This document shows, one piece after another, positions 3,339 through 64,000 of a stretch of DNA of 64,000 nt (its first letter is position 1; each line of letters starts with the position of its first letter). The stretch covers positions 1 through 64,000 of the forward strand of contig JARKQJ010000124.1 in assembly GCA_029973955.1 (NCBI GenBank), written 5' to 3'. Position numbers and translations under genes: made by a program. The notes beneath the pieces were generated by a model. It had not been told where the DNA came from and did no database searches. It was given only the letters and a program-made list of their open reading frames with translations. This DNA is from Paludibaculum sp. (GTDB taxonomy: Bacteria > Acidobacteriota > Terriglobia > Bryobacterales > Bryobacteraceae).

Positions 3339-4217
3339 AGAGGCGAAGCTGACGCCGGGCAGGCGTGCGGAAGCGGTGCCGGCGGCGACGCCCCAACGGA
3401 GAGCATCGGTCACATCAGGGTTCTGACGCCACGACCAGACGAAAGCAGCGCCCAGGGCATCGCCCGCGCCGATGGGGCAGAGAGCATCGATTCTGGGCGG
3501 CACGGCTTCCCAGACTGAGCCGTCTTCGAGCGCGGCGAGGGCGCCGCGAGCGCCGAGGGAGAGGACGACGTTCACCGCCCCCATGCCGCGAATGCGCTCA
3601 GCCGCCTCCTGGAAGTGATTGCGGGTGAGCAGGGCCCGGTTCAGCAGGCGTTCCGCCTCCTGCTGGTTGGGGGTAACCACGGTGGGCTTGGCGTCGAGAG
3701 CGACGTCGAATTCAGTGCCATCCGCATCGAGGAGCGTCTTGACCCCCTGCTTGGAGGCGGCGTGAATGAGACGGGCGTAGAAGTCGGACGGAACGCCGGG
3801 CGGCAAAGAGCCGCAAAGCATGAGCCAGGCTCCGCTCTTGAGCCGCTGGCGCACGGCTTTTTCAAGGCGACCGACCTCGGATCCACTCAGTTCGGGGCCC
3901 TTTTCATTGAGCTTGACGGCGAGGCCGTTGCGATCGGCGACGGTCACATTGGTGCGGATCTGGTTGCGGATGCGCACGAGTTCCACGGGAAATCCGCAGC
4001 CGCCGAGGAACTCCTCGAGCGCCCGGCCGGCCTTACCGCCGCAGATGGCGATGGCCATGGTTTCAGCGCCGAAGGCGCGCAGAACGGCGGAGGCGTTGAG
4101 GCCGCGTCCGCCGGCCGACTCGAAGGTGGAGAGGATATAGGCGCGGTCTTCGAAGACCAGGCGGTCGACCGTGACGTTGCGGTCGATGGCGGGGTTGGCT
4201 GTCAGTGTGAGGATCAA
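3285..4217 (-). CDS. 1-phosphofructokinase / PfkB-family sugar kinase
   Basis: MILTLTANPAIDRNVTVD, SAGGRGLNASAVLRAFG, PIGAGDALGAAFVW (PfkB signature); 310 aa. Confidence 0.88.
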   Translation of the reverse strand: MILTLTANPAIDRNVTVDRLVFEDRAYILSTFESAGGRGLNASAVLRAFGAETMAIAICGGKAGRALEEFLGGCGFPVELVRIRNQIRTNVTVADRNGLAVKLNEKGPELSGSEVGRLEKAVRQRLKSGAWLMLCGSLPPGVPSDFYARLIHAASKQGVKTLLDADGTEFDVALDAKPTVVTPNQQEAERLLNRALLTRNHFQEAAERIRGMGAVNVVLSLGARGALAALEDGSVWEAVPPRIDALCPIGAGDALGAAFVWSWRQNPDVTDALRWGVAAGTASARLPGVSFASLEQTREIYQRVATRQVA

Positions 4218-4262
4218 GCCTCATTCTATCGGCTTCCAGAGGGCGGATGGTACCCTGAAAAC

Positions 4263-5156
4263 TTGAAGCGACACCCCCAGTTTTGGGCCTATGCGGCCCT
4301 TGGCTCCGTCTGTTTTTTCTGGGGTACGACGTACCTGGGCATCCGGATGGCCCTGGAGATGTGGCCTCCGATCCTCCTGATCGCCACGCGGTTTCTTCTG
4401 TCGGGGGGCATTCTGCTGGCGGGGTGCGCGTTGTATGGGGCGCGTCTGCCGCGCGGGCGGGAGTTGTGGCTGACGGCGTTGAACGGGGTGGTGATTCTGG
4501 GGGTAGGCAACAGCGCGCTGGTGTTTGCGGAGACGCTGATTCCGAGCGGCATCGCGGCGCTGATCATCACGATCAGCCCGTTCTGGATGGTGGGGTTGAA
4601 TGCCATTCTGCCGCCGCGGGAGAGCCTGCACCCGCCGACGCTGGCGGGTATGCTGGTGGGGCTGGGCGGAGCAGTTCTGCTGGTGGGGCCGGGGGCGTTG
4701 CACGGGGGCGCGCAAGGGGCGGCACTGTGGAAGGGCTTTCTCATTCTGCAGGCCGGGTGCCTGGCGTGGACGTCGGGTTCACTGCTGCAGAAGCGGCAGG
4801 CGGTGACGGTGCATCCGATTGTGGCCGGCGCGGTGCAGCAACTGGCGGCGGGATTGGCATCTCTTCCCCTGGTCTGGATGTTCCCCGGAGAGGTGCACTA
4901 TTCGCAGCGAGGGGTGGCGGCGCTGCTGTACTTGGTGACGTTCGGGTCGATTGTGGGGTATTCGAGCTATGTGGTGGCGCTGCAGCGGCTGCCGGTGGCG
5001 CTGGTTTCGCTGTACAACTACGTGAATCCGGTTGTGGCCGTGATTCTGGGCTGGATCTTCTACCGCGAGCCGTTCGGGCCGAGGGAGGCGTTGGCGATGG
5101 TGGTGATCTTCGCCGGAGTTGCCCTGGTGAAGCGGTTGGAAGCTCGAAAGCGGTAA
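4263..5156 (+). CDS. EamA/DMT-family transporter
   Basis: MKRHPQFWAYAALGSVCFFWGTTYLGIRMAL..., multiple TM segments in two EamA-like repeats; TTG start inferred at 4263. Confidence 0.85.
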   Translation: MKRHPQFWAYAALGSVCFFWGTTYLGIRMALEMWPPILLIATRFLLSGGILLAGCALYGARLPRGRELWLTALNGVVILGVGNSALVFAETLIPSGIAALIITISPFWMVGLNAILPPRESLHPPTLAGMLVGLGGAVLLVGPGALHGGAQGAALWKGFLILQAGCLAWTSGSLLQKRQAVTVHPIVAGAVQQLAAGLASLPLVWMFPGEVHYSQRGVAALLYLVTFGSIVGYSSYVVALQRLPVALVSLYNYVNPVVAVILGWIFYREPFGPREALAMVVIFAGVALVKRLEARKR

Positions 5157-52443: not shown

Positions 52444-55400
52444 TCAGAAAGTCAGCCGCAGCCCGAATCGGAACAGCCGCTCGTCGATGCCCTCGCGTCC
52501 GGTATTCTGCACGCTCGTGATTACCGTGTAGCCGTTCAGATTCCTGATCGATCCATCGGCGTTCAACTGCATGTTGCTCACCGTGGCGCCCGGCGCCGCG
52601 AAGTGCGGCGTGTTCGTTACGTTGAACGCCTCGGCGCGGAACTGCGCGCGGAAGCGCTCCGTGATCCGGAACTCCCGGAACACGCTCGCATCCAGGTTCG
52701 CCAGACCCGGCGCCCGCACCACGTTGAAGCCCGAACTGCCGAAGCGCGCGTCCGTCACCACGCCGAAGGCAAACGGGTCAAACCAGCTGTTCGGCGTCCC
52801 CAGGATTTCCACTTTCTGCCTGACCAGGTCCGCCGTCTGCGCGTTGCCCGGCGCATTCAACGACGTCGCCGAAGTCGTCACCGTGAACGGCGGCCCCGAA
52901 TACAGCACCAGCAGCGAATTCAATTGCCAGCCGCCCAGCAACGCTCCAGCGAAGCCTTGCTCCGCCCACTTCCTGCCCTTGCCGAACGGCAGTTCCCACG
53001 TGGCCGACGCGGTGAACTGGTGCGGCCGGTCGTAGCTTTGCACGGCTTTGTTCAGGAGTTGGTAGGCCGGCGTCGCATCCGAGTAGCCGTCCACGCCGGT
53101 TGTGTTCCCGTTCGGGCCCAGCGCCTTGCTCCACATGTACGTGAACTTCGTCGTGAACCCGCGCGCGAAGCGCCGGTTCAGCGAACTTTCAAACGCATTG
53201 AACGACGACGTGAAGCCGAACATGTCTGAAAAGTAGTTGGTCGTCGCAGTGCGGCCGAACGCCTGGTTCAATACCATGCTGGGCGTGCCGCCGCCAATGT
53301 AGCCGTAGTTCGAATTCCAGCGGTTCTGCATGTGCCTCATGCCGTTGGCGACATATCCGGCCTCGGCCACCCAGCCATCCCGGAATTCCTTCTGGACCAT
53401 GAAGTTGTAGCTCTGCACATAGCCCCGGCGGAAATTCGGATCGAAAATCTCCACGCCGATCGTGCCCGGCAGCGTAACGCTCCCCGCGCTCAGGTTCGGC
53501 GCAGTGATCGCGGGAATGCCATCCCCCAGCTTGCTCGATGGCTGGAAGCTGTTCACGCCCACCGCCTGGAACATCGTCTGTACGGGATAGCTGTGCAGCG
53601 CGTTTCTGCCGATGTTCACCGGGTCGTAGGCGATGCCGTACCCGGCGCGGACCACCAGTGTGTTGCTGAGCCGGTAAGCCAAACCCACACGCGGGGCAAA
53701 GTAGCTCTTGCCCATGTTGATCACGCCGCAATCCGTCGGATTTGAGCCGGTTCCGCAGAACTTCATTGTGTTTGTCGCGAAGTCGTACACTTCCATGCCC
53801 CGGTTGGCCCGGTGGGGCACGCCGAAGTAGTCCCACCGCAGTCCATAGGACAGCGTCAGCTTCGGATTCAGTTGCCACTTGTCGCGCACATACAGGCTCA
53901 CCGCCTGCACGCGCTCCGTGTTCTCTTCCCACATCACCGTCTTGGAAATCCCCGAAGGCAGGCCCAGCATGAAGGCTGCGTAGGCGTTGTAGTTGTCCGT
54001 CGCTCCGCCCCGGATGCCCGTAATGCCGGCCGTGAAATCGAACTGTCCGGACTGCGCGCCCGCCGAGTTCGGTTCGTTGCCCGTCAGACTCACCCGCATC
54101 GAATCGAAGCCGAAGCGGATCTGGTGCGTGCCCTTCATCCACGATGCGTTCGCCACATACTGCGACTGCGGGCTGTGGTAGTACCACGGCGAATTGCTGT
54201 TCCCCCGGCCCAGCGTCGTGAAACCGCTGATCGTGAACGCCGGCCAGCCGCCCTGGTAGGTCGCGCCGCCGTTCGTCCCCGGCAGTTTCAGATAATCCGA
54301 GCCCAGGTTCTCGCTCAGCCGGATCGGGTTCGCACCCGCGTCATACAGCGTGTAGCCCACGTTTGCGTCGACGATGAACTTCGGCGTCAGCGTGTATACG
54401 CCCGCGAACGTCGTGCTGATTGTGTGCCCCTGCGATTGCCCGTCGTAAGTGCACCGCCCCACGCCGCCGCCGCCCAGGTCGCCCAGAATCGCCGGATCCT
54501 GGCACGACCAGTACAGCGTGCTCACCCGCGCGCTCAGCCCCAGCTTGCTCGTGGCGTTCCAGTTCACCTTCGAGTCGAAGGTCTTCCGGTCGAACATGCT
54601 CGGCCCGCTCACAAACAGGTTGTTCGCAATCCCACTCCCGATGTTCGGCAGCGGCGTCAGCCCCGCCAGCGTCTTTGCCGTCGCATCCAGTCGCGCCGTC
54701 GGGATGATGTTGCCGCTGAATGGCGCGCGGCCTGAGCCGTCCAATGAGCCGGTAAGCGGGTCGTAAATCACCCGCGTCGATTGCGAGAAGTCTCCCGTTC
54801 GCATCGCCGCCGTCGGCACCGACGCCGTACTCGTCCATGACGCCTGCCGGTCGAATGTGCCCTCGAACGAGGCGAAGTAAAACAGTTTGTTCTTGACGAT
54901 CGGCCCGCCCAACGTCCCGCCAAACTGGTTCACCACGCGCTTGTCTTTGTCCCTGCCCACCGGCAGGAAGTACGGCCGCGCCTTCAGGTGCTGGTCTGTG
55001 TGATACTCGTAGCCCGATCCGTGCAACTCGTTGGTCCCGCCCTTGATCTGCACGTTCACCGCCACGCCGCCGGCATAACCCTGCTCGGCGTCGAAGCTGT
55101 TTGATACCACGTTCACTGACTCAATCGCATCCATCGACGGCACATAACCGGACACATGCGGCAGCCACGGATGCCCCGTCGTCGCGCCATCCACCCGGAA
55201 ATTCGCCGATTGGCCGTTCGTCCCGTTGGCATTCACCTGCAGCGATCGTGATGGATTCGCCGGCACCGAGTGTGCGTTCACCGGCAACGCCATGCCCGGC
55301 ACCGTGATCAGAAGGCTCTGGTAGTTCCGCGTGAAGGGCACCGGCAGATTCAGCAGCGAGGTGCTTCCAATCTCCTGCCGTACATCGGCGCTGTCCGTTT

Positions 55401-55791
55401 GCAGCACCGCCGCCCCGGCGCTCACCTTCAGGATCTCCGTCACTACCCCGACGTTCAGTCCAACGTCCACGCGCACCACGTTGTTTGCCGCCACCGCCAC
55501 GCCTTCCTGCGTGATCGGCTGGAATCCCTTGGCGGTCACTGTCACGTTGTATGTGCCCGCCGGCAACGTGCTCGCCGAGTAAAGCCCGGCCTCATTCGTG
55601 GTCACCTGCCATTCCTGTGCCGTGCCCTGATTGACGATCTTCACCGCTGCGTTCGGAACTGCCGCGCGTGAGGGGTCCGTCACGTTTCCCACAAGGGAGC
55701 CGTAGAGAACCTGCGCTTCCGCGCTGGGCGCCCAAACGCAACCGCCAATCACCACGGCAGCAGCCAGCATCAACTTCGCGCTTCGAGTCAT
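52444..55791 (-). CDS. TonB-dependent receptor, Oar-like, with N-terminal carboxypeptidase-regulatory-like domain
   Basis: Signal peptide; GSLVGNVTDPSRAAVPNAAVKIVNQGT; large beta-barrel ending GIDERLFRFGLRLTF; 1115 aa. Confidence 0.92.
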   Translation of the reverse strand: MTRSAKLMLAAAVVIGGCVWAPSAEAQVLYGSLVGNVTDPSRAAVPNAAVKIVNQGTAQEWQVTTNEAGLYSASTLPAGTYNVTVTAKGFQPITQEGVAVAANNVVRVDVGLNVGVVTEILKVSAGAAVLQTDSADVRQEIGSTSLLNLPVPFTRNYQSLLITVPGMALPVNAHSVPANPSRSLQVNANGTNGQSANFRVDGATTGHPWLPHVSGYVPSMDAIESVNVVSNSFDAEQGYAGGVAVNVQIKGGTNELHGSGYEYHTDQHLKARPYFLPVGRDKDKRVVNQFGGTLGGPIVKNKLFYFASFEGTFDRQASWTSTASVPTAAMRTGDFSQSTRVIYDPLTGSLDGSGRAPFSGNIIPTARLDATAKTLAGLTPLPNIGSGIANNLFVSGPSMFDRKTFDSKVNWNATSKLGLSARVSTLYWSCQDPAILGDLGGGGVGRCTYDGQSQGHTISTTFAGVYTLTPKFIVDANVGYTLYDAGANPIRLSENLGSDYLKLPGTNGGATYQGGWPAFTISGFTTLGRGNSNSPWYYHSPQSQYVANASWMKGTHQIRFGFDSMRVSLTGNEPNSAGAQSGQFDFTAGITGIRGGATDNYNAYAAFMLGLPSGISKTVMWEENTERVQAVSLYVRDKWQLNPKLTLSYGLRWDYFGVPHRANRGMEVYDFATNTMKFCGTGSNPTDCGVINMGKSYFAPRVGLAYRLSNTLVVRAGYGIAYDPVNIGRNALHSYPVQTMFQAVGVNSFQPSSKLGDGIPAITAPNLSAGSVTLPGTIGVEIFDPNFRRGYVQSYNFMVQKEFRDGWVAEAGYVANGMRHMQNRWNSNYGYIGGGTPSMVLNQAFGRTATTNYFSDMFGFTSSFNAFESSLNRRFARGFTTKFTYMWSKALGPNGNTTGVDGYSDATPAYQLLNKAVQSYDRPHQFTASATWELPFGKGRKWAEQGFAGALLGGWQLNSLLVLYSGPPFTVTTSATSLNAPGNAQTADLVRQKVEILGTPNSWFDPFAFGVVTDARFGSSGFNVVRAPGLANLDASVFREFRITERFRAQFRAEAFNVTNTPHFAAPGATVSNMQLNADGSIRNLNGYTVITSVQNTGREGIDERLFRFGLRLTF

Positions 55792-56484: not shown

Positions 56485-57531
56485 CTATGCCGGAGCAAGT
56501 CTGCCAGGCGTACCGTCCAGTCGACCGCATGCCCTGGCTACGAGACAACATTCGGGTTTACAGGAATCGCAACCTGGGCCCAACTTCCCCAGCGCGCGTC
56601 GTTGTTGACCGCTCGTGCGCTCCAGAATCAGTTCGCGGATCATCGATACCAATGCCGGATGCACGCCCACTGTCGCGGCTCTGACCAGGTTGACGCCCAA
56701 CTCCCGGCACAGCGCCGCCGCCTCGGTGTCCAGGTCGTAGATCACCTCCATGTGATCGGAGAGAAAACCTATGGGCTGGACCACTATGTCCGTCAAGCCC
56801 CCTGAGGAGTGAAGTTGGCGGATGTAGTCACAGATGTCGGGACCGAGCCAAGGCTGTGAGGGAGCACCGCTCCGGCTCTGATAGACCAGCGGTGCATCAG
56901 GCCGGCCCAATATCTGGCACACCAGTTGGCACGACTCGCGGAGTTGCTCCTCGTAAGGGCTCACCTCCGACATCGAGAGTGGGATGCTGTGGGCGGTGAA
57001 CACAACAGGCGCTGAAGCGCGCCGTGCGGGCGGAACCTGCTGCAGCGCCGCACGGACGCGGTCGGCCGCAGCGGCGATGAAGCCGGGATGGTTATGGTAG
57101 GTCCTCAGCTTGTGGATCTCAGGAGCATCCGGCCCAATCTCCATCCGCGCCCGTTCGATGTCCTCCCGATATTGGCGGCAACCCGAATAGGATCCAAACG
57201 CCGAGGTGACGAAAGCCAGAGCGCTACGCACCCCGTCTGCCCGCATCTGCCGCAACGTGTCGGCCAGCATGGGATGCCAGTTCCGGTTTCCCCAGTAGAC
57301 AGGAAGCGAGGGACCATGCACTTGGAATTCGCGCTCCAGGGCCGCGATCAAAGCCCGGTTCTGGTCGTTGATGGGGCTCCTGCCTCCAAAGTGATAATAG
57401 TGCTCGGCCACCTGAAGCATTCGCTGGCGGGGCACGTTCTTTCCGCGCAGCACATTCTCGAGGAACGGGATCACATCTTCCCGCCCTTCCGGTCCGCCGA
57501 ACGAAACGATTAGCAGTGCGTCATACGTCAT
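56485..57531 (-). CDS. hemH: Ferrochelatase
   Basis: DALLIVSFGGPEGREDVIPFLENVLRG, YHFGGRSPINDQNRALI, VYWGNRNWHPML, FTAHSIPLSM, PIGFLSDHMEVIYDLDTEA. Confidence 0.93.
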   Translation of the reverse strand: MTYDALLIVSFGGPEGREDVIPFLENVLRGKNVPRQRMLQVAEHYYHFGGRSPINDQNRALIAALEREFQVHGPSLPVYWGNRNWHPMLADTLRQMRADGVRSALAFVTSAFGSYSGCRQYREDIERARMEIGPDAPEIHKLRTYHNHPGFIAAAADRVRAALQQVPPARRASAPVVFTAHSIPLSMSEVSPYEEQLRESCQLVCQILGRPDAPLVYQSRSGAPSQPWLGPDICDYIRQLHSSGGLTDIVVQPIGFLSDHMEVIYDLDTEAAALCRELGVNLVRAATVGVHPALVSMIRELILERTSGQQRRALGKLGPGCDSCKPECCLVARACGRLDGTPGRLAPA

Positions 57532-58901
57532 GGATGAGTCTCCTGGCTTTGGGCCGTGATGGCGGCCGCAGCGATTCTACGGAGCATTCCTTCGAACACG
57601 AATTGGTGCAGGGGATACACGGCGTACCAGTAGGCTCGTCCCAACAGGCCGCGGGGGTCGAAACTTGCGGTCTGGCGAATCGTGGTTCCGCCGGAATCAC
57701 CCGACACCGAGAACTCCAGCCACGCGCGTCCAGGCAGTTTCATCTCGGCTGCGAGGCGCAAGCGATGATTCGGCTCAAGTGTTTCCACTCGCCAGAAATC
57801 CACCTGATCTCCGGCGCGGAGGTTCTCAGGATCGCGGCGTCCCCGTCGCAGTCCCACCCCCCCTACGACCCGATCCATGGCGCCGCGCAGCCTCCAAAGC
57901 CAATTGGCGTAGTACCATCCGGTGGCGCCGCCGATCCGGCAGATGGGCTCGAACGCCTTCTCCGGCGGCACTTGTACACGGATTGACCTGGAATCGAACA
58001 GCCAACCCTGTTCTCCCGTGCTCAACGCCCTGGCGATCGCTTCGCGGAATCCGCAAGGGCGAATCGAAAACACAGCCATCGCCGACGGGTCTTCGACCAC
58101 CGTGGAGTGGCGAATGCTGTCAATCAGCTTCCGGCCCACTCGAACGTACAGAGGAGTGACCAGACCCAGCCAGAGGCTGGAAAGCCGGGGTGTGAGCACG
58201 GGCACGGATAGGATCAACCGCTTCAAGAATCGCTGGCGCGCATATTCCCGCATCAGATCGCCATACGAGACGCGATCGGCGCCACCGATCTCGAACACCC
58301 GGCTGACGTCTGAGGGCAGGTCCAAAGCGGCAAGCAGGTAGTCCAGCAGGTCCTGGATGGCAATCGGTTGGGCAGGCACGGACACCCAGCGGGGCGCAAT
58401 CATCATGGGCAGCCGTTCCACCAGGGCTCGGATCATCTCGAAAGAGAGACTGCCGGAGCCAATCACAATCGATGCCCGAAACTCAATGACACTCACTCCG
58501 CTTGCGCGCAGGATCTCCCCTACCTCCTGACGGCTGCGCAGGTGCGCCGACAGTTCCTGGTCGTTTCTGCCGAGTCCGCCGAGGTAGACGACCCGGCGCA
58601 CTCCCGCTTCCCGCGCGGCGTCACCAAAGACACGCGCCGCGGCACGGTCTTCTTCCTCGAAGGAACCCGGCGAGCTCATCGAGTGAACCAGGTAGTAGGC
58701 GGTGTCCACTCCGGTCATGGCGGCTCGAACCGAAGCCGCGTCCAGAACGTCGCCGCGCACGACTTCCGTCCCGGTTGCGGTCCCCAGGGCCTCCGGCCGT
58801 CGCGCCAGACAGCGGACCCGATGGCCGCCCGCCACGAGGGCTTTCAATAACTCTCCACCGACGTATCCGGTGGCGCCCGTGAGCAGGATGAGAGGTTTCA
58901 T
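57528..58901 (-). CDS. NAD(P)-binding SDR/epimerase with C-terminal DUF2867-like domain
   Basis: MKPLILLTGATGYVGGELLKAL, AYYLVHSM; C-terminal RRDPENLRAGDQVDFWRVE..LRLAAEMKLPGRAWLEF, DPRGLLGRAYWYAVYPLHQFVFEGML. Confidence 0.88.
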   Translation of the reverse strand: MKPLILLTGATGYVGGELLKALVAGGHRVRCLARRPEALGTATGTEVVRGDVLDAASVRAAMTGVDTAYYLVHSMSSPGSFEEEDRAAARVFGDAAREAGVRRVVYLGGLGRNDQELSAHLRSRQEVGEILRASGVSVIEFRASIVIGSGSLSFEMIRALVERLPMMIAPRWVSVPAQPIAIQDLLDYLLAALDLPSDVSRVFEIGGADRVSYGDLMREYARQRFLKRLILSVPVLTPRLSSLWLGLVTPLYVRVGRKLIDSIRHSTVVEDPSAMAVFSIRPCGFREAIARALSTGEQGWLFDSRSIRVQVPPEKAFEPICRIGGATGWYYANWLWRLRGAMDRVVGGVGLRRGRRDPENLRAGDQVDFWRVETLEPNHRLRLAAEMKLPGRAWLEFSVSGDSGGTTIRQTASFDPRGLLGRAYWYAVYPLHQFVFEGMLRRIAAAAITAQSQETHP

Positions 58902-59467
58902 GATTTTCTGTTACTCGCTAGTGCGGCGAGTGCGCGATCGCGCGCCTGGCCGTAGTCCGCCACTGGCGGCGGCACGGGTTTCGCCCGGGTCGCTCGCCAG
59001 AAGGCCGCAAACCCCCGGAATGGCTCGCCGCTCTGGCTGTGGGTCGTCCACGGCTCATACAGCAGGCTGGCGTTGAAGCTCTCCGCGAGAAGTCCGCGGG
59101 CGCGCAGCTTCGACTTCAAGTTGCTGCCGCGGGTGACTGCGGCGGGCTCGTAGCGTCGATTCCAGAGCACGGTACCTGCTCCGGTTTCCGCAGCCAGCGA
59201 GCTAAGGGTTTCCTCGGTCGGGCCTCGCCGGAGGATCAGCCGGGAGCCGAATTGTCCCAAGGTAGCGCCTAAATCCGCCAATGAGTGATGCAGCCGCCAT
59301 TTCGAGACCGCCCCCGGCGTCCACGTCCCCTCTTCTTCCGGGGCTCGGACGTAAACCGGAAGCACCGCACGCTTCCGCTTCAGCGCGGCGGCCAGCGCCG
59401 GATGGTCCGACAGGCGCGGGTCCTGCCGAAACCAGACCAGAGTGGGCGACCCACCACTGCCGTTCAC
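58898..59467 (-). CDS. Stand-alone DNA photolyase N-terminal (antenna) domain protein, no FAD-binding domain
   Basis: GTG start; SPTLVWFRQDPRLSDHPALAAALKRKRAVLPVYVRAPEE..WRLHHSLADLGATLGQFGSRLILRRGP..VLWNRRYEPA...EPFRGFAAFW; stop at 189 aa. Confidence 0.82.
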   Translation of the reverse strand: MNGSGGSPTLVWFRQDPRLSDHPALAAALKRKRAVLPVYVRAPEEEGTWTPGAVSKWRLHHSLADLGATLGQFGSRLILRRGPTEETLSSLAAETGAGTVLWNRRYEPAAVTRGSNLKSKLRARGLLAESFNASLLYEPWTTHSQSGEPFRGFAAFWRATRAKPVPPPVADYGQARDRALAALASNRKS

Positions 59468-59973
59468 TGCGCCTCCAGCGTCGCGACTCGGAAAAGCTCC
59501 GGGATGCGCTGAGCGCGGTAGCCGAAGATCCTCTCCACGTCGCGCCGGACTTTGAGACGGTGCACCAGTCGGCCGATGATCCCCAAGGGAAGCCGATATC
59601 GGACGATATCCGTCATGAGTGTTCCATCGTCTTTCGGCTCGAATCGGTGCGTGTGATGCCAAAGCTGGTACGGACCGTGCAGTTGAACGTCGGCAAAACG
59701 ATGGGGCGGCTTCCATTCCCGAATCTCGGTCTCCCAACTCACCGGAATGCCGTGCAAGCGTAACCGGTATAGGATTCGAGTTCCCTCGGCGATCTGCATC
59801 GGGCCGGGTGTCAGTATGCGGAATCGCAGCCAGGGTGGTGTGATCTCCTCCAGGTTTCGCGCGTCGGAAAAGAACGCGAACACTTCATCGATGGGCCGGG
59901 GTATCCACTGCCGGCGCCGCAACGTGTGAAACCGGATCAATCCTTCGTCCCTCCTCTCCCCAGGGTTCGCCAA
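59464..59973 (-). CDS. SRPBCC (START-like/cyclase-dehydrase) family protein
   Basis: RRRQWIPRPIDEVFAFFSDARNLEEITPPWLRFRIL; GxxxxYRLRLHGIPVSWETEI; start may be TTG near 59940. Confidence 0.85.
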   Translation of the reverse strand: MANPGERRDEGLIRFHTLRRRQWIPRPIDEVFAFFSDARNLEEITPPWLRFRILTPGPMQIAEGTRILYRLRLHGIPVSWETEIREWKPPHRFADVQLHGPYQLWHHTHRFEPKDDGTLMTDIVRYRLPLGIIGRLVHRLKVRRDVERIFGYRAQRIPELFRVATLEAQ

Positions 59974-61180
59974 ACAACTTGCGGGGTGAATGGTTCTTGG
60001 TGAACAGGAGCTGGAAGTCGCCGATATGGCGCTCCAGGAACGCGCCCTCGCAGTAGGCGAAATAGTAGTCCCACATGCGAATGAAACGGTCGTCGAAGCC
60101 CAGAGCCCGGACTTCGTCCAGCGAATTCTGAAACCGCTTCCGCCACTCGGCCAGCGTCCGCGCGTAGTGGGTGCCGATGTCCTCGGCGTGGTAGAGCGAA
60201 AGGCCGGTCACCCTGGCCAGCGAGCGCAGGACTTCACTCACCGACGCCAGCTCCGCCCCAGGGAAAATGTGTTTCTGGATGAAGTCGGCGCTCTGGCGGT
60301 AAGTCCGAAACGCCTGTTCGTTGATGGTGATGGTCTGGAGCAGCATGCTACCGTCCGGCCGCAACAAGCGGTCGCACGCGCCGAAGAAATCATCGTAGTG
60401 GGTCAGTCCCACGGCTTCGAACATCTCGATGCTCACGATTTTGTCGTAGCGGCCGCGGAGGTTTCGATAATCCTCCTGGAGCAACTCGATCCGATCCCGG
60501 CCGGCAATCGAGTCGAAGCGGCGGCGTGCATGCTGGTACTGCTGTTCGCTGATCGTCGTGGTGGTCACGCGGCAACCGTAATGATTTACCGCGTGCTCGG
60601 CGAAGCCGCCCCAGCCTGTGCCGATTTCGAGTACGTGATCTTCCGGGCCAAGGCGCAGCTTCCGGCAGATGCGGTCGAGTTTCTCGAACTGGGCGGCTTC
60701 CAGCGAATCGTCATCCGAAGCGAAGACCGCGCAGGAGTACATCATGCTGCGATCGAGGAACAGGCGGAAGAAGTCGTTGCTCAAATCGTAATGCGCGCCG
60801 ATGTTGCGGCGGCTGCCGGCGATGGAGTTTCCGCGCAGGCGATGAGTCAGGTAGTCCCCCCCACGGCTCAATGCGGTGAGCAGCCGGTTCTGCCCGTCCA
60901 TTCCGGCGAGGTTCCGCACCGCCAGGCGGATCACTGAAACCAAGTCCGGCGAGGACCAGTCGCCATCCATCCATGCCTCTCCGATGGCGACGTCGCCGCC
61001 GAAGACGGCGCGCCGGAAGAACCGGTCCTGGTGGACCACCACGACGGCCCGTAGCGCCGCATCTCCGTCGCCAAACTCCCAGCTCTGGCCGTCCGTAATC
61101 AGTTCGAGCGAGCCTCCGCGCACCGATTCCAGGCTCTTCAGGAAGACGCGCTTAGCGAGGGAGGTGAGAAATGGCTTCAT
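59885..61180 (-). CDS. cfa: Cyclopropane-fatty-acyl-phospholipid synthase-like SAM methyltransferase
   Basis: NIGAHYDLSNDFFRLFLDRSMMYSCAVF, VLEIGTGWGGFAEHAVNHYGCRVTTTTISEQQ, IVSIEMFEAVG, FIQKHIFPG. Confidence 0.92.
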   Translation of the reverse strand: MKPFLTSLAKRVFLKSLESVRGGSLELITDGQSWEFGDGDAALRAVVVVHQDRFFRRAVFGGDVAIGEAWMDGDWSSPDLVSVIRLAVRNLAGMDGQNRLLTALSRGGDYLTHRLRGNSIAGSRRNIGAHYDLSNDFFRLFLDRSMMYSCAVFASDDDSLEAAQFEKLDRICRKLRLGPEDHVLEIGTGWGGFAEHAVNHYGCRVTTTTISEQQYQHARRRFDSIAGRDRIELLQEDYRNLRGRYDKIVSIEMFEAVGLTHYDDFFGACDRLLRPDGSMLLQTITINEQAFRTYRQSADFIQKHIFPGAELASVSEVLRSLARVTGLSLYHAEDIGTHYARTLAEWRKRFQNSLDEVRALGFDDRFIRMWDYYFAYCEGAFLERHIGDFQLLFTKNHSPRKLFGEPWGEEGRRIDPVSHVAAPAVDTPAHR

Positions 61181-61937
61181 GGTTGTGCTCCTTGCGGTGC
61201 GCCGGGTGCGTGTAAACCGGCACTTTCTTCGAATACAGTTGCAATGCCTCCCAGTGAATGGCTGCGATTACCTTGGCCGTCATCCACGGGAAACGCCGCA
61301 GCACCCGGTGGAGCGCCGGCGCGCTCCAGGGCTCGCGGTGAAGAGTGAGGGTCGCGTCGAAGTTGGCATGCTCACCGTCGAGGGTGCTCATGTGCGCCAC
61401 CAGTCGGTCGCCCGGAGGCGGCAGCACGAAGCGGTAGTCGAGTTCCATCGGCATGAATGGTGACACGTGCATCGACTTCGGACAGCGGTGGACGTGCGGC
61501 CGGGACGGATGTTCGATCGACACGGCCGAGAGCCAGTAGTTCCGTCTCTCGCCGAACGTATTGTTCACCTCGGCCAGGATCGTTGCGAGCTTTCCGTCCA
61601 GGCCGTAGCAGTAAAACAGTGAGATGGGGTTGAAGTTGTAGCCCAGATAGCGAAGATGAGTCAGTAGGAAAATGGGGCCGTCCGGCAAACGGATATCCTG
61701 CTGTGCGGCGTCGGCCTTCAGCCTCTCGCGCAGCGGCAGAGTGGGATCGCCGAAATGGTCCCGCTCATGGAAGCTGGCCCAGTTGAAGCGGTTGTAGCTC
61801 GCAAACGGCGAGACCGCCATCTGTTCGGGGATACGATCGATGTCCAGAAACGCCATGAACAGCGGATAGGTGAACGCGTGGCGCCGGGGTTCGAACCTGC
61901 GGTGCCGTAACGTGCCGGTGTAGATTGCGGACACCAT
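61152..61937 (-). CDS. DUF1365 (COG3496) family protein
   Basis: AIYTGTLRHRRFEPRRHAFTYPLFMAFLDID, YLGYNFNPISLFYCYG, KSMHVSPFMPMELDYRF. Confidence 0.9.
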   Translation of the reverse strand: MVSAIYTGTLRHRRFEPRRHAFTYPLFMAFLDIDRIPEQMAVSPFASYNRFNWASFHERDHFGDPTLPLRERLKADAAQQDIRLPDGPIFLLTHLRYLGYNFNPISLFYCYGLDGKLATILAEVNNTFGERRNYWLSAVSIEHPSRPHVHRCPKSMHVSPFMPMELDYRFVLPPPGDRLVAHMSTLDGEHANFDATLTLHREPWSAPALHRVLRRFPWMTAKVIAAIHWEALQLYSKKVPVYTHPAHRKEHNHEAISHLPR

Positions 61938-61941
61938 CTTG

Positions 61942-63192
61942 TTAGCACTCTACTCCCAGCGTGCGGACTACGCGAAGGGCCGAATTGAGTCCGTCTTCGT
62001 GGAATCCGTAGAGCCAATATGCTCCACAATAGTGGGTTCTGTTCACGCCACTGACTTCTTTCCAACGTGCCTGCGCCCGGATGGCGTCCCGCGTGTAGAG
62101 GGGGTGGAAGTACACCATTCGTCGCACGACCTTGGAAGGATCGATCGCCTCGTTGCCGTTGAGCGTGACGCAGTACTCTTCCGGAACATCCAGAGACTGC
62201 AGACGGTTCATGTGATAGGTCAGGGTGGCGGCTCCGCCGGCGTCCCGGCTCAGATGGTAGTTCCACGATGCGCGCGCCTGTCGCCTCGCCGGCAATAGGG
62301 ACGAATCGGTGTGCAGGCAGACTTCATTGCGGCTGGTCTCGAACTTGCCCAGGACGGCCCGCTCGGCGTCGCTCGGCGATTCGAGCAGCGGAAGAATCTG
62401 ATTCCCATGGCAGGCGAATACGACCTGGTCGAAGGACAGCGCCGAGCGGTCATGAAACCGGAGAGTCACCTCCGATTCGCTCCGGCCCACGGACTCAAGG
62501 TTCGCGCCCGTGTAGACTCGATTGCGAAATGGCGCCGTGATCGGCCCGATGTAGCTGTGGCTGCCGCCACGGATCACTTTCCACTTCGGGTGCGTGTTGA
62601 TGCCCAGCATTCCGTGGTTGTCGAAAAACCTCAGCAACGTGAGGGCCGGGAAGGATCGGATCGCTTCGGTGGACATCGACCAGACGGCGCACGCCATCGG
62701 GTAGAGATAACGCTCGGTGAATAGCGCGGAGTACCCTCCCTCTTCGATGACATCCCCCAGGGTGAGTGTTTCAGCCGCTCGATCGTTCAGCAGTCTGGGC
62801 GCCTCCCGGTTGAAGCGCAGGATCTCCCGCAGGAGGCGGTATTGGTCCAATCGCAGAAGGTTTCTGCGTTGCGCGAAGAACCCATCGAAGCCGCGGCTGG
62901 AGTACTCGAAGCCCGTGTGCCGGCACAGGACACCGAATGACATGTCGCTAGCCTGTGTTTCTACCTTCAACTCTGCCAGCAGTCGCACCAGGTTCGGGTA
63001 CGTGCGGTCGTTGTGCACAATGAAGCCGGTATCCACCGCTAGCGGGCCGCGGCTGCTTTCCACCGTGACCGTATGGGTGTGCCCGCCGACGCGCGTGTCC
63101 TTCTCGAAGACCGATACCTCATGCTTCCGGCTCAGGTAGTACGCCGCCGCCAGGCCCGAAATGCCGCTGCCGATCACCGCGATGCGCATCAC
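61942..63192 (-). CDS. FAD-dependent amine-oxidase-type oxidoreductase (COG2907-like)
   Basis: RIAVIGSGISGLAAAYYLSRKHEVSVFEKDTRVGGHTHTV, AVDTGFIVHNDRTYPNLVRLLAEL, VVFACHGNQILPLL. Confidence 0.9.
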   Translation of the reverse strand: MMRIAVIGSGISGLAAAYYLSRKHEVSVFEKDTRVGGHTHTVTVESSRGPLAVDTGFIVHNDRTYPNLVRLLAELKVETQASDMSFGVLCRHTGFEYSSRGFDGFFAQRRNLLRLDQYRLLREILRFNREAPRLLNDRAAETLTLGDVIEEGGYSALFTERYLYPMACAVWSMSTEAIRSFPALTLLRFFDNHGMLGINTHPKWKVIRGGSHSYIGPITAPFRNRVYTGANLESVGRSESEVTLRFHDRSALSFDQVVFACHGNQILPLLESPSDAERAVLGKFETSRNEVCLHTDSSLLPARRQARASWNYHLSRDAGGAATLTYHMNRLQSLDVPEEYCVTLNGNEAIDPSKVVRRMVYFHPLYTRDAIRAQARWKEVSGVNRTHYCGAYWLYGFHEDGLNSALRVVRTLGVEC

Positions 63193-64000
63193 TTGGCCTC
63201 CTGCGCCCGGGCGGCCGGAATCTGGAAGGGCCGTAAATCCCTGGCAATACCGAGCACCCCAAGCAGCCTCAGCACCCAGTAGGTGACATCAATCTCCCAC
63301 CATCGAATCCCTTGCCGGCAACTCCCCATAGAAAAATGATGATTGTTGTGCCAGCCTTCGCCGAAGGTGATCAGAGCCAGCAGCCAGTTGTTGCGGCTGT
63401 GATCCGGAGTCTCGAAACGGCGGGTGCCGAAGAGGTGCGCCAGCGAATTGATGGCAAACGTGCAATGGTACAGCAGCACGGTCGAAACAACGTAGCCCCA
63501 CACGAAGGCCGCCACGCCGCCCGTCAAGAGGATGCACGCTGCAAACACTACCGTCGGAACCCAGTGATGGCGGTCAATCCATTGCAGTTCCGGAAACCGC
63601 GCAAGATCCGCCACCTTCTTTGGTTCATAGGCGTCGTGCTCGTTCGAGAGAATCCAGCCGACGTGCGACCACCAGAAACCTCCATGCCAGGGTGAGTGAA
63701 CGTCCAGATCGCGGTCCGAATTCCGGTGGTGGTCGCGATGGTGGGCCGCCCACCAAAGGACGCCTTTCTGGCCTGAGGTTTGGGCAAGGAACGCCATCAG
63801 GAACTGCCCAACCCGTCCCAAACGGTAGCTTCGATGGCTGAAATAGCGATGGTAGCCGGCCGTTACCCCAAACATTCGGATGGAGTACGTGATCGCCATC
63901 CATAGGAGTAGGCTCCGATTGGGCGGGACCAGAAACGCCGCGGCAACCCCCAAGTGCAACAGCACAAATGGGATGACTACTCCAAATCGGTACTTGGCGG
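63189..64000 (-). CDS. Delta-9-type fatty acid desaturase, 5' end outside window
   Basis: His boxes HRYFSHR, HHRDHH, HNNHHF; frame stays open upstream of the ORF-track start (AKYRFGVVIPFVLLHLGV..) to the right edge. Confidence 0.92.
   Translation of the reverse strand, partial: AKYRFGVVIPFVLLHLGVAAAFLVPPNRSLLLWMAITYSIRMFGVTAGYHRYFSHRSYRLGRVGQFLMAFLAQTSGQKGVLWWAAHHRDHHRNSDRDLDVHSPWHGGFWWSHVGWILSNEHDAYEPKKVADLARFPELQWIDRHHWVPTVVFAACILLTGGVAAFVWGYVVSTVLLYHCTFAINSLAHLFGTRRFETPDHSRNNWLLALITFGEGWHNNHHFSMGSCRQGIRWWEIDVTYWVLRLLGVLGIARDLRPFQIPAARAQEAK

Follow-up and report, generated by a model that had tools for sequence, protein, structure and literature searches.

Gene content and organization of the locus

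The DNA under study, i.e., the first 64,000 nucleotides of contig C153 from a Paludibaculum sp. genome (hereafter the window), belongs to a draft metagenome-assembled genome (MAG) of 282 contigs and 6.5 Mb, in which the contig continues to position 78681. At the end of the window lies an operon of eight minus-strand genes, which is separated by a 35-bp near-palindrome from a second, divergent gene arm headed by a gene for a LitR-type regulator (coordinates above 64000 carry the same contig numbering past the window end). The best explanation of this operon, as read from sequence, is that it represents the larger of the two arms of a divergent, light-switched locus dedicated to the formation of methyl- and dimethyl-furan fatty acids on membrane phospholipids. 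The identified features are as follows:

63189..64000, minus strand (GTG start at contig position 64019, the gene being truncated by the window edge): membrane acyl desaturase of the DesA/stearoyl-CoA type; His boxes HRYFSH, HRDHH and HNNHH intact, read directly
61942..63192, minus strand: UfaD-like flavin desaturase (COG2907/Amino_oxidase), from Pfam, a GSGISG dinucleotide motif and a gene order as in RPA2571-2570-2569
61152..61937, minus strand: UfaO-like furan-forming monooxygenase (DUF1365), from Pfam family
59885..61180, minus strand: UfaM-like fatty acyl methyltransferase, Cfa family, A240/Q266 subtype, from Pfam, alignment and tree
59464..59973, minus strand: SRPBCC (START-like) lipid/hydrophobic-ligand binding protein, accessory, from Pfam and phmmer
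58898..59467, minus strand: photolyase minus its FAD-binding domain (in-frame deletion), the antenna domain being fused to the C-terminal tail
57528..58901, minus strand: SDR (NAD(P)-binding) plus DUF2867 protein, accessory, from Pfam and phmmer
56485..57531, minus strand: second-copy ferrochelatase HemH, accessory, from Pfam/NCBIfam and tree
64048-64082: predicted 35-bp palindromic LitR operator, between LitR and the desaturase
64124-65062, plus strand: LitR (MerR plus B12-binding), divergent from the desaturase
65059-65394: DUF1475, LitR arm
ending at 65867: DUF2062, LitR arm
ending at 66670: DUF1295, LitR arm
66652-67722: FufM-like methyltransferase (CMAS family), LitR arm
68261-68779: redoxin-like gene, LitR arm
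68786-69331: glutathione peroxidase, LitR arm

The eight open reading frames and their junctions are all present as described in the original prediction, each gene overlapping its neighbours or nearly so: four junctions are 4-nt overlaps (63192/63189, 59467/59464, 58901/58898 and 57531/57528), two are longer overlaps of 29 nt (61180/61152) and 89 nt (59973/59885), and one is a 4-nt gap (61942/61937). From the desaturase onwards, the Pfam assignments are FA_desaturase, Amino_oxidase, DUF1365, CMAS, Polyketide_cyc, DNA_photolyase, NAD_binding_10 plus DUF2867, and Ferrochelatase, with which NCBIfam also agrees. These bear out the gene names given earlier, except that the gene named a photolyase antenna domain is a FAD-deleted photolyase rather than a stand-alone domain. 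The pathway had also been described as self-contained within the eight genes, but was found to span the divergent arm outside the window.

Conservation of the cluster

For the comparison, 61 related genomes and GTDB representatives were searched for DUF1365 loci, whose neighbouring genes were identified by phmmer. Counts refer to the 36 distinct loci in which DUF1365 is flanked by 6 kb or more on both sides; these are not fully independent because six similar Acinetobacter loci are among them. A flavin oxidoreductase and a Cfa-like gene were found on the same strand as DUF1365 in every locus (36/36 each), and DUF1295 (34/36), a second methyltransferase (30/36), a desaturase (24/36) and LitR (18/36) were found nearby. 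The clustering of the core is far beyond chance, and the core is present in Acidobacteriota, Pseudomonadota, Planctomycetota and Verrucomicrobiota. By contrast, SRPBCC, photolyase, SDR-DUF2867 and HemH were each found in only 2-6 of the 36 loci and are variable accessories, not conserved members. The proposed co-location of the gene set in relatives therefore holds for the core, while the complete eight-gene set was found only in the window genome among the loci compared.

The Acinetobacter loci (L075-L080), which come from culturable species, possess a one-strand operon in the order desaturase-ufaD-ufaO-ufaM-DUF1295-fufM, without LitR nearby. Two loci, from a ‘Bordetella parapertussis’ MAG (L055, genome G032) and a ‘Betaproteobacteria bacterium’ (L060), are Acidobacteriota-like and G032 was placed in the family of the window genome, so that both titles look mis-assigned.

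The putative furan fatty acid genes

Furan fatty acids are antioxidant lipids of bacteria, plants and fish, and the bacterial genes for their synthesis were largely named in 2020. The adjacent flavin desaturase, DUF1365 and Cfa-like genes of the window match, in kind and order, ufaD-ufaO-ufaM (RPA2571-2570-2569) of Rhodopseudomonas palustris. Together, ufaD, ufaO and ufaM are necessary and sufficient for production of 9M5-FuFA, a furan fatty acid with a single methyl group; UfaD generates a conjugated diene, UfaO forms the ring using O2, and FufM adds a second methyl group (PMC7380195). The core trio should thus be equivalent to these three genes. DUF1365, which had been listed as uncharacterised, is not so, because it corresponds to UfaO, the furan-forming monooxygenase (PMC7380195).

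The closest solved structure to the flavoprotein of the window is the oxidase LkcE. For DUF1365, no solved relative was detectable by sequence; its AlphaFold model is confident (mean predicted local distance difference test score, pLDDT, of 91.1), and matches of this model to PDB entries are weak, the best being Ycf58 (E 0.014, TM score 0.51 on the target), with several lipocalins also returned. The modelled fold is perhaps a beta-barrel resembling lipocalins and fatty-acid-binding proteins. Invariant residues of DUF1365 include H12, R14, D60, E123, E130, K154 and S159, and relatives of this protein are also listed on plasmids.

The Cfa-like enzyme has its best solved-structure match in E. coli Cfa, in which Glu239, His266 and Tyr317 bind bicarbonate, the base that closes the cyclopropane (PMC11387697). 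When aligned to E. coli Cfa, the window enzyme carries Gln282 in place of His266 and Ala256 in place of the His that follows Glu239 (position 240). Both Ala240 and Gln266 (E. coli numbering) are found in all 58 cluster methyltransferases, whereas the 14 Cfa-type enzymes encoded away from the cluster in these genomes retain His266 in ten cases and have His240 in 13, and none of them has Ala240; the window genome's own ordinary Cfa (contig C237) has both His residues. Furthermore, the cluster enzymes all fall into a single clade (Shimodaira-Hasegawa-like approximate likelihood ratio test, SH-aLRT, 99), distinct from that of ordinary Cfa and from that of the second methyltransferases (SH-aLRT 100). 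Since bicarbonate closes the cyclopropane ring, the altered site fits methylation without cyclopropanation, and we infer that the cluster methyltransferase acts without ring closure. Ala240 and Gln266 may serve as markers separating these enzymes from ordinary cyclopropane synthases, as which many of them are probably misnamed. In a locus from Arenicella (L074:7361-10280), there are two UfaM-type genes, one on each strand.

The second methyltransferase, a putative FufM, has its closest matches among plant coclaurine N-methyltransferases (276 bits, versus 113 for E. coli Cfa), and the tree agrees; its algal homologue CFA2 bears the same annotation. Arabidopsis LIME1 is a homologue of FufM, to which it is 38% identical (PMC10940516).

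A LitR-type regulator and its predicted operator

The original prediction had suggested that an ECF/ChrR or LitR-type regulator might lie beyond position 64000. The LitR type was indeed found, divergently oriented, of the B12 type and with its own conserved operator, whereas no ChrR (Cupin_7) protein exceeded the Pfam curated cut-off in the draft genome, a single sub-threshold match of 23.4 bits being returned. This LitR aligns along its length to CarH of Thermus (TtCarH) and comprises a MerR domain and both B12-binding domains; the Rossmann domain scores 26.9, below the Pfam cut-off of 32.1, but is covered by the CarH alignment. Light-responsive B12 domains are characterized by four motifs, i.e., GxxW, EH, GxxH and GxxxP (PMC11796333), and LitR has 4/4 light-signature motifs (W131, E141, H142 and H177 of TtCarH). 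A LitR-controlled, light-induced ufaM is already known in Pseudomonas (PMC9758184). Most likely, the cluster is switched on by light via a vitamin-B12-based sensor, and the proposed light-linked modification of membrane acyl chains is in this respect supported in silico.

The 35-bp near-palindrome in the LitR/desaturase intergenic region (64048-64082) reads TGTCAAGnATTTGTCnnnGACAAATnCTTGACA. Alignment of the intergenic regions of the 18 loci with a divergent LitR yielded the consensus nTGTCAAGnATTTGTCnnnGACAAATnCTTGACAn, which, allowing up to four mismatches, is present once per locus in 16 of the 18, the other two being at seven mismatches. The consensus did not occur in 1.03 Mb of base-shuffled sequence, a test which is not blind because the consensus came from the same loci, while the -10 test and promoter scan described below are independent of it. 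In the 6.5-Mb genome the operator is unique, and no further LitR site was found genome-wide within three mismatches.

Each operator arm contains a -35 box, either TTGACA or, on one side in five loci, TTGACG, and in nearly all cases a -10-like hexamer lies 17 bp outward from it on both sides. A match to TATAAT in at least four positions was found for 62.5% of 32 sides, compared to 4.4% at random positions, and a sigma70 scan, run independently over 13.6 kb, returned as its top hits exactly the desaturase and LitR promoters. GACA elements lie 11 bp apart within each arm, as the elements of CarH operators repeat every 11 bp (PMC8156234), while the exact nAnnTnnACAn consensus is met only in part. 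Loci L022-L027 (same order, family f3) carry a LitR/CarH homologue on the same strand, at the 3' end of the ufa operon rather than divergent from it; the 35-bp operator was not found in these loci.

DUF1295 as a candidate pathway member

DUF1295 (at >200 bits) and DUF1365 are present in the identical 17 of 61 related genomes and both absent from the other 44, a match for which a hypergeometric value would overstate significance because the genomes are related. In genome G017 the two genes co-occur on different contigs, the second methyltransferase lying beside DUF1295. DUF1295 also matches the steroid reductase family (steroid-5-alpha-reductase-like membrane protein) and is probably a membrane reductase. 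In Chlamydomonas, the SAK1-dependent genes induced by singlet oxygen include CFA1, CFA2, GPX5, a DUF1365 and a DUF1295 gene, CFA2 also being annotated as a coclaurine N-methyltransferase (PMC4067076); by analogy, this set would be essentially an algal version of the present locus with its genes dispersed. It was still an open question in 2021 whether Chlamydomonas forms furan lipids (PMC8491031).

Because of the profile match in the 61 genomes and the algal co-induction by singlet oxygen, DUF1295 is proposed as a probable further component dedicated to furan fatty acid synthesis. The UfaO furan-forming step is still without a known reductant. DUF1295 is a likely missing component of the pathway. 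We consider the chances evenly balanced for the wider proposal that DUF1295 is a so far overlooked protein dedicated to the pathway in organisms ranging from bacteria to green algae, possibly as a reductase partner (e.g., as a source of reductant for UfaO), and that the Acidobacteriota pathway forms a B12-LitR light regulon governed by one bidirectional operator.

Accessory genes

In the photolyase gene (58898-59467), residues 1 to ~165 represent the antenna domain and are joined to ~25 final residues from the extreme photolyase C-terminal tail, the FAD domain of ~290-300 residues being missing in frame; the junction lies near position 58970. Full-length photolyase relatives occupy the same place in L040 and, in L052, a place a short way downstream of ufaM. 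The gene is broken in both of the closest relatives, which are lake MAGs, by transposase-like sequence in L036 (~4034-4661) and by divergence into a stop in L038 (~3404-3892), which suggests that photolyase has been lost repeatedly. As predicted from its sequence, the operon gene is not a functional photolyase. The photolyase FAD domain (PF03441) has no match genome-wide. That the genome lacks any other photolyase was considered and rejected, as PF00875 matches a second gene on C79; this photolyase-family gene (C79:177243-177722, L122) looks by its sequence like a full-length member of class II.

The genus housekeeping HemH is encoded elsewhere (C71:121763-122635, L121) and groups with its genus, whereas the operon HemH does not, and instead pairs with a copy from genome G049 (SH-aLRT 92). 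HemH as an ancestral light-operon gene common to Acidobacteriota was rejected, as the tree keeps the window copy apart from the ufa-linked copies of L049, L061 and L067. In Shewanella, the RpoE2-ChrR regulon includes a second hemH with glutathione peroxidase, plus a phrB-cfa operon (PMC4336711), a co-regulation which supports, by analogy, a photo-oxidative role here.

Just 3' of the operon (52444-55791, minus strand) lies a gene for a large outer-membrane beta-barrel protein (OMP_b-brl_4), the N-terminal domain of which is carboxypeptidase-regulatory-like.

Proposed function and alternative explanations

Of the readings considered, a furan fatty acid locus under light control has the best support, and we hold it to be highly probable; furan fatty acids, raised in the original prediction, are the likely product. 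In the dark, LitR bound to adenosylcobalamin (AdoCbl) would occupy the 35-bp operator and block both -35 boxes, which the sequence places within it. Upon illumination, by analogy with CarH, the Co-C bond of B12 would break, LitR would depart and both arms would be transcribed. The desaturase would then produce a cis-monoene, which, going by homology to proven enzymes, the UfaM-type enzyme would methylate without cyclopropane closure, UfaD would convert to a conjugated methyl-diene and UfaO would close to a furan with oxygen from O2, the FufM-type enzyme adding the second methyl; DUF1295, probably a membrane reductase, would be a further member. The resulting furan is expected to quench singlet oxygen and other reactive oxygen species, while the extra HemH may reduce photosensitising porphyrin and glutathione peroxidase would clear peroxides.

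Several points weigh against this interpretation. His132 of TtCarH is Glu in this LitR, and the photoproduct may therefore differ. Identity with the proven UfaD, UfaO, UfaM and FufM is presumed from family, gene order and published statements. Cis-vaccenate is the substrate of Rhodobacter UfaM, and the present desaturase type may yield another monoene, affecting chain length or ring position. The genome, a draft MAG, has a completeness of 94.5% and a contamination of 6.05%, and the literature searched, which included few subscription journals, yielded no report of furan fatty acids from Acidobacteriota.

As for the chemistry, the Cfa-like gene could encode an ordinary cyclopropane synthase within a general membrane-stress operon devoid of furan synthesis, in keeping with its structural match to E. 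coli Cfa and with the frequent stress induction of Cfa. This is quite unlikely, in view of the Ala240/Gln266 pair in all cluster enzymes as against the His residues mostly kept outside the cluster and both kept in the C237 Cfa, the separate clade, and the invariable linkage with the DUF1365 and flavin desaturase genes. In other bacteria, a Cfa-family methyltransferase and a flavoprotein make 10-methylstearate, and a 10-methyl-type branched fatty acid (by a Tms/Bfa-like methyltransferase and flavin reductase) could be the product in place of a furan. The TmsA/BfaA flavoprotein is of the FAD_binding_4 type, whereas that of the window is of the UfaD-like Amino_oxidase/COG2907 type, and the loci are linked to DUF1365, the furan-forming step of the proven pathway, so that we rate this the least probable alternative.

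Regarding regulation, homologous gene sets are controlled by ChrR in Rhodobacter and Shewanella (PMC4336711 for Shewanella), and sigmaE-ChrR could accordingly respond to singlet oxygen here in place of light-responsive LitR; the lack of a ChrR-type Cupin_7 protein over the cut-off and the sigma70-type boxes overlapping the LitR-linked operator make this very improbable. The photolyase fragment might have been kept as a functional stand-alone antenna or light-sensing protein, as its deletion leaves the reading frame intact and preserves the 4-nt overlap with the following gene. One in three random deletions keeps the frame, however, relatives are either full-length (L040, L052) or otherwise disrupted (L036, L038), and a full-length class II-like photolyase is encoded elsewhere in the genome; this possibility, though the least remote of the four, is doubtful, and a stand-alone antenna domain was rejected on account of the C-terminal tail and the full-length relatives. 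The deletion could also conceivably be an error of MAG assembly.

Returning to the light-controlled furan fatty acid locus, neither the furan pathway nor the control of ufa genes by LitR is new. In the same body of literature, there appears to be no description of the pathway combined with a B12-type LitR, of the bidirectional operator, of the Ala240/Gln266 marker or of the link to DUF1295. The locus predicts a directly B12-photosensed furan pathway in an abundant environmental phylum, for which the exact predicted operator is now defined.

Comparison with known systems

In Rhodopseudomonas palustris, ufaD-ufaO-ufaM (RPA2571-2570-2569) follow the same order as the trio described here, and the fufM gene (RPA0924) has a probable counterpart in the second, FufM-kind methyltransferase; Rhodobacter sphaeroides possesses a ufaD-ufaO operon plus ufaM (PMC7380195). 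Compared to both, the present locus has an added membrane desaturase, SRPBCC, SDR-DUF2867 and HemH, carries the FufM-like, DUF1295 and LitR genes on a divergent arm, and has B12-LitR in place of sigmaE-ChrR. The SAK1 genes of Chlamydomonas reinhardtii, i.e., CFA1, CFA2, DUF1365, DUF1295 and GPX5, are co-induced and of the same kinds as those of the locus (PMC4067076), but are separate from each other, and the authors of that study assigned none of them to a furan pathway.

With respect to regulation, the light-inducible pplR1 and pmlR1 clusters of Pseudomonas putida and P. mendocina likewise have a LitR-family repressor near phrB, SDR, FAD oxidoreductase and ufaM genes, and their operator overlaps the -35 box, as it does here. 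The repressor of these clusters is, however, a class II LitR without a full B12 site, which works with a LOV protein and recognizes the operator TGTACA-N12-TGTACA (PMC9758184), whereas the regulator described here has the full B12 light signature and a different operator. The class I CarH/LitR proteins of Thermus, Bacillus and Myxococcus also combine MerR and B12-binding domains with a W-x9-EH motif, and their operators have 11-bp repeats overlapping the -35 box, as seen here (PMC8156234). While the known targets of this class are carotenoid genes, those of the present locus are lipid genes, which are served by a symmetric two-promoter operator and a regulator in which Glu replaces His132.

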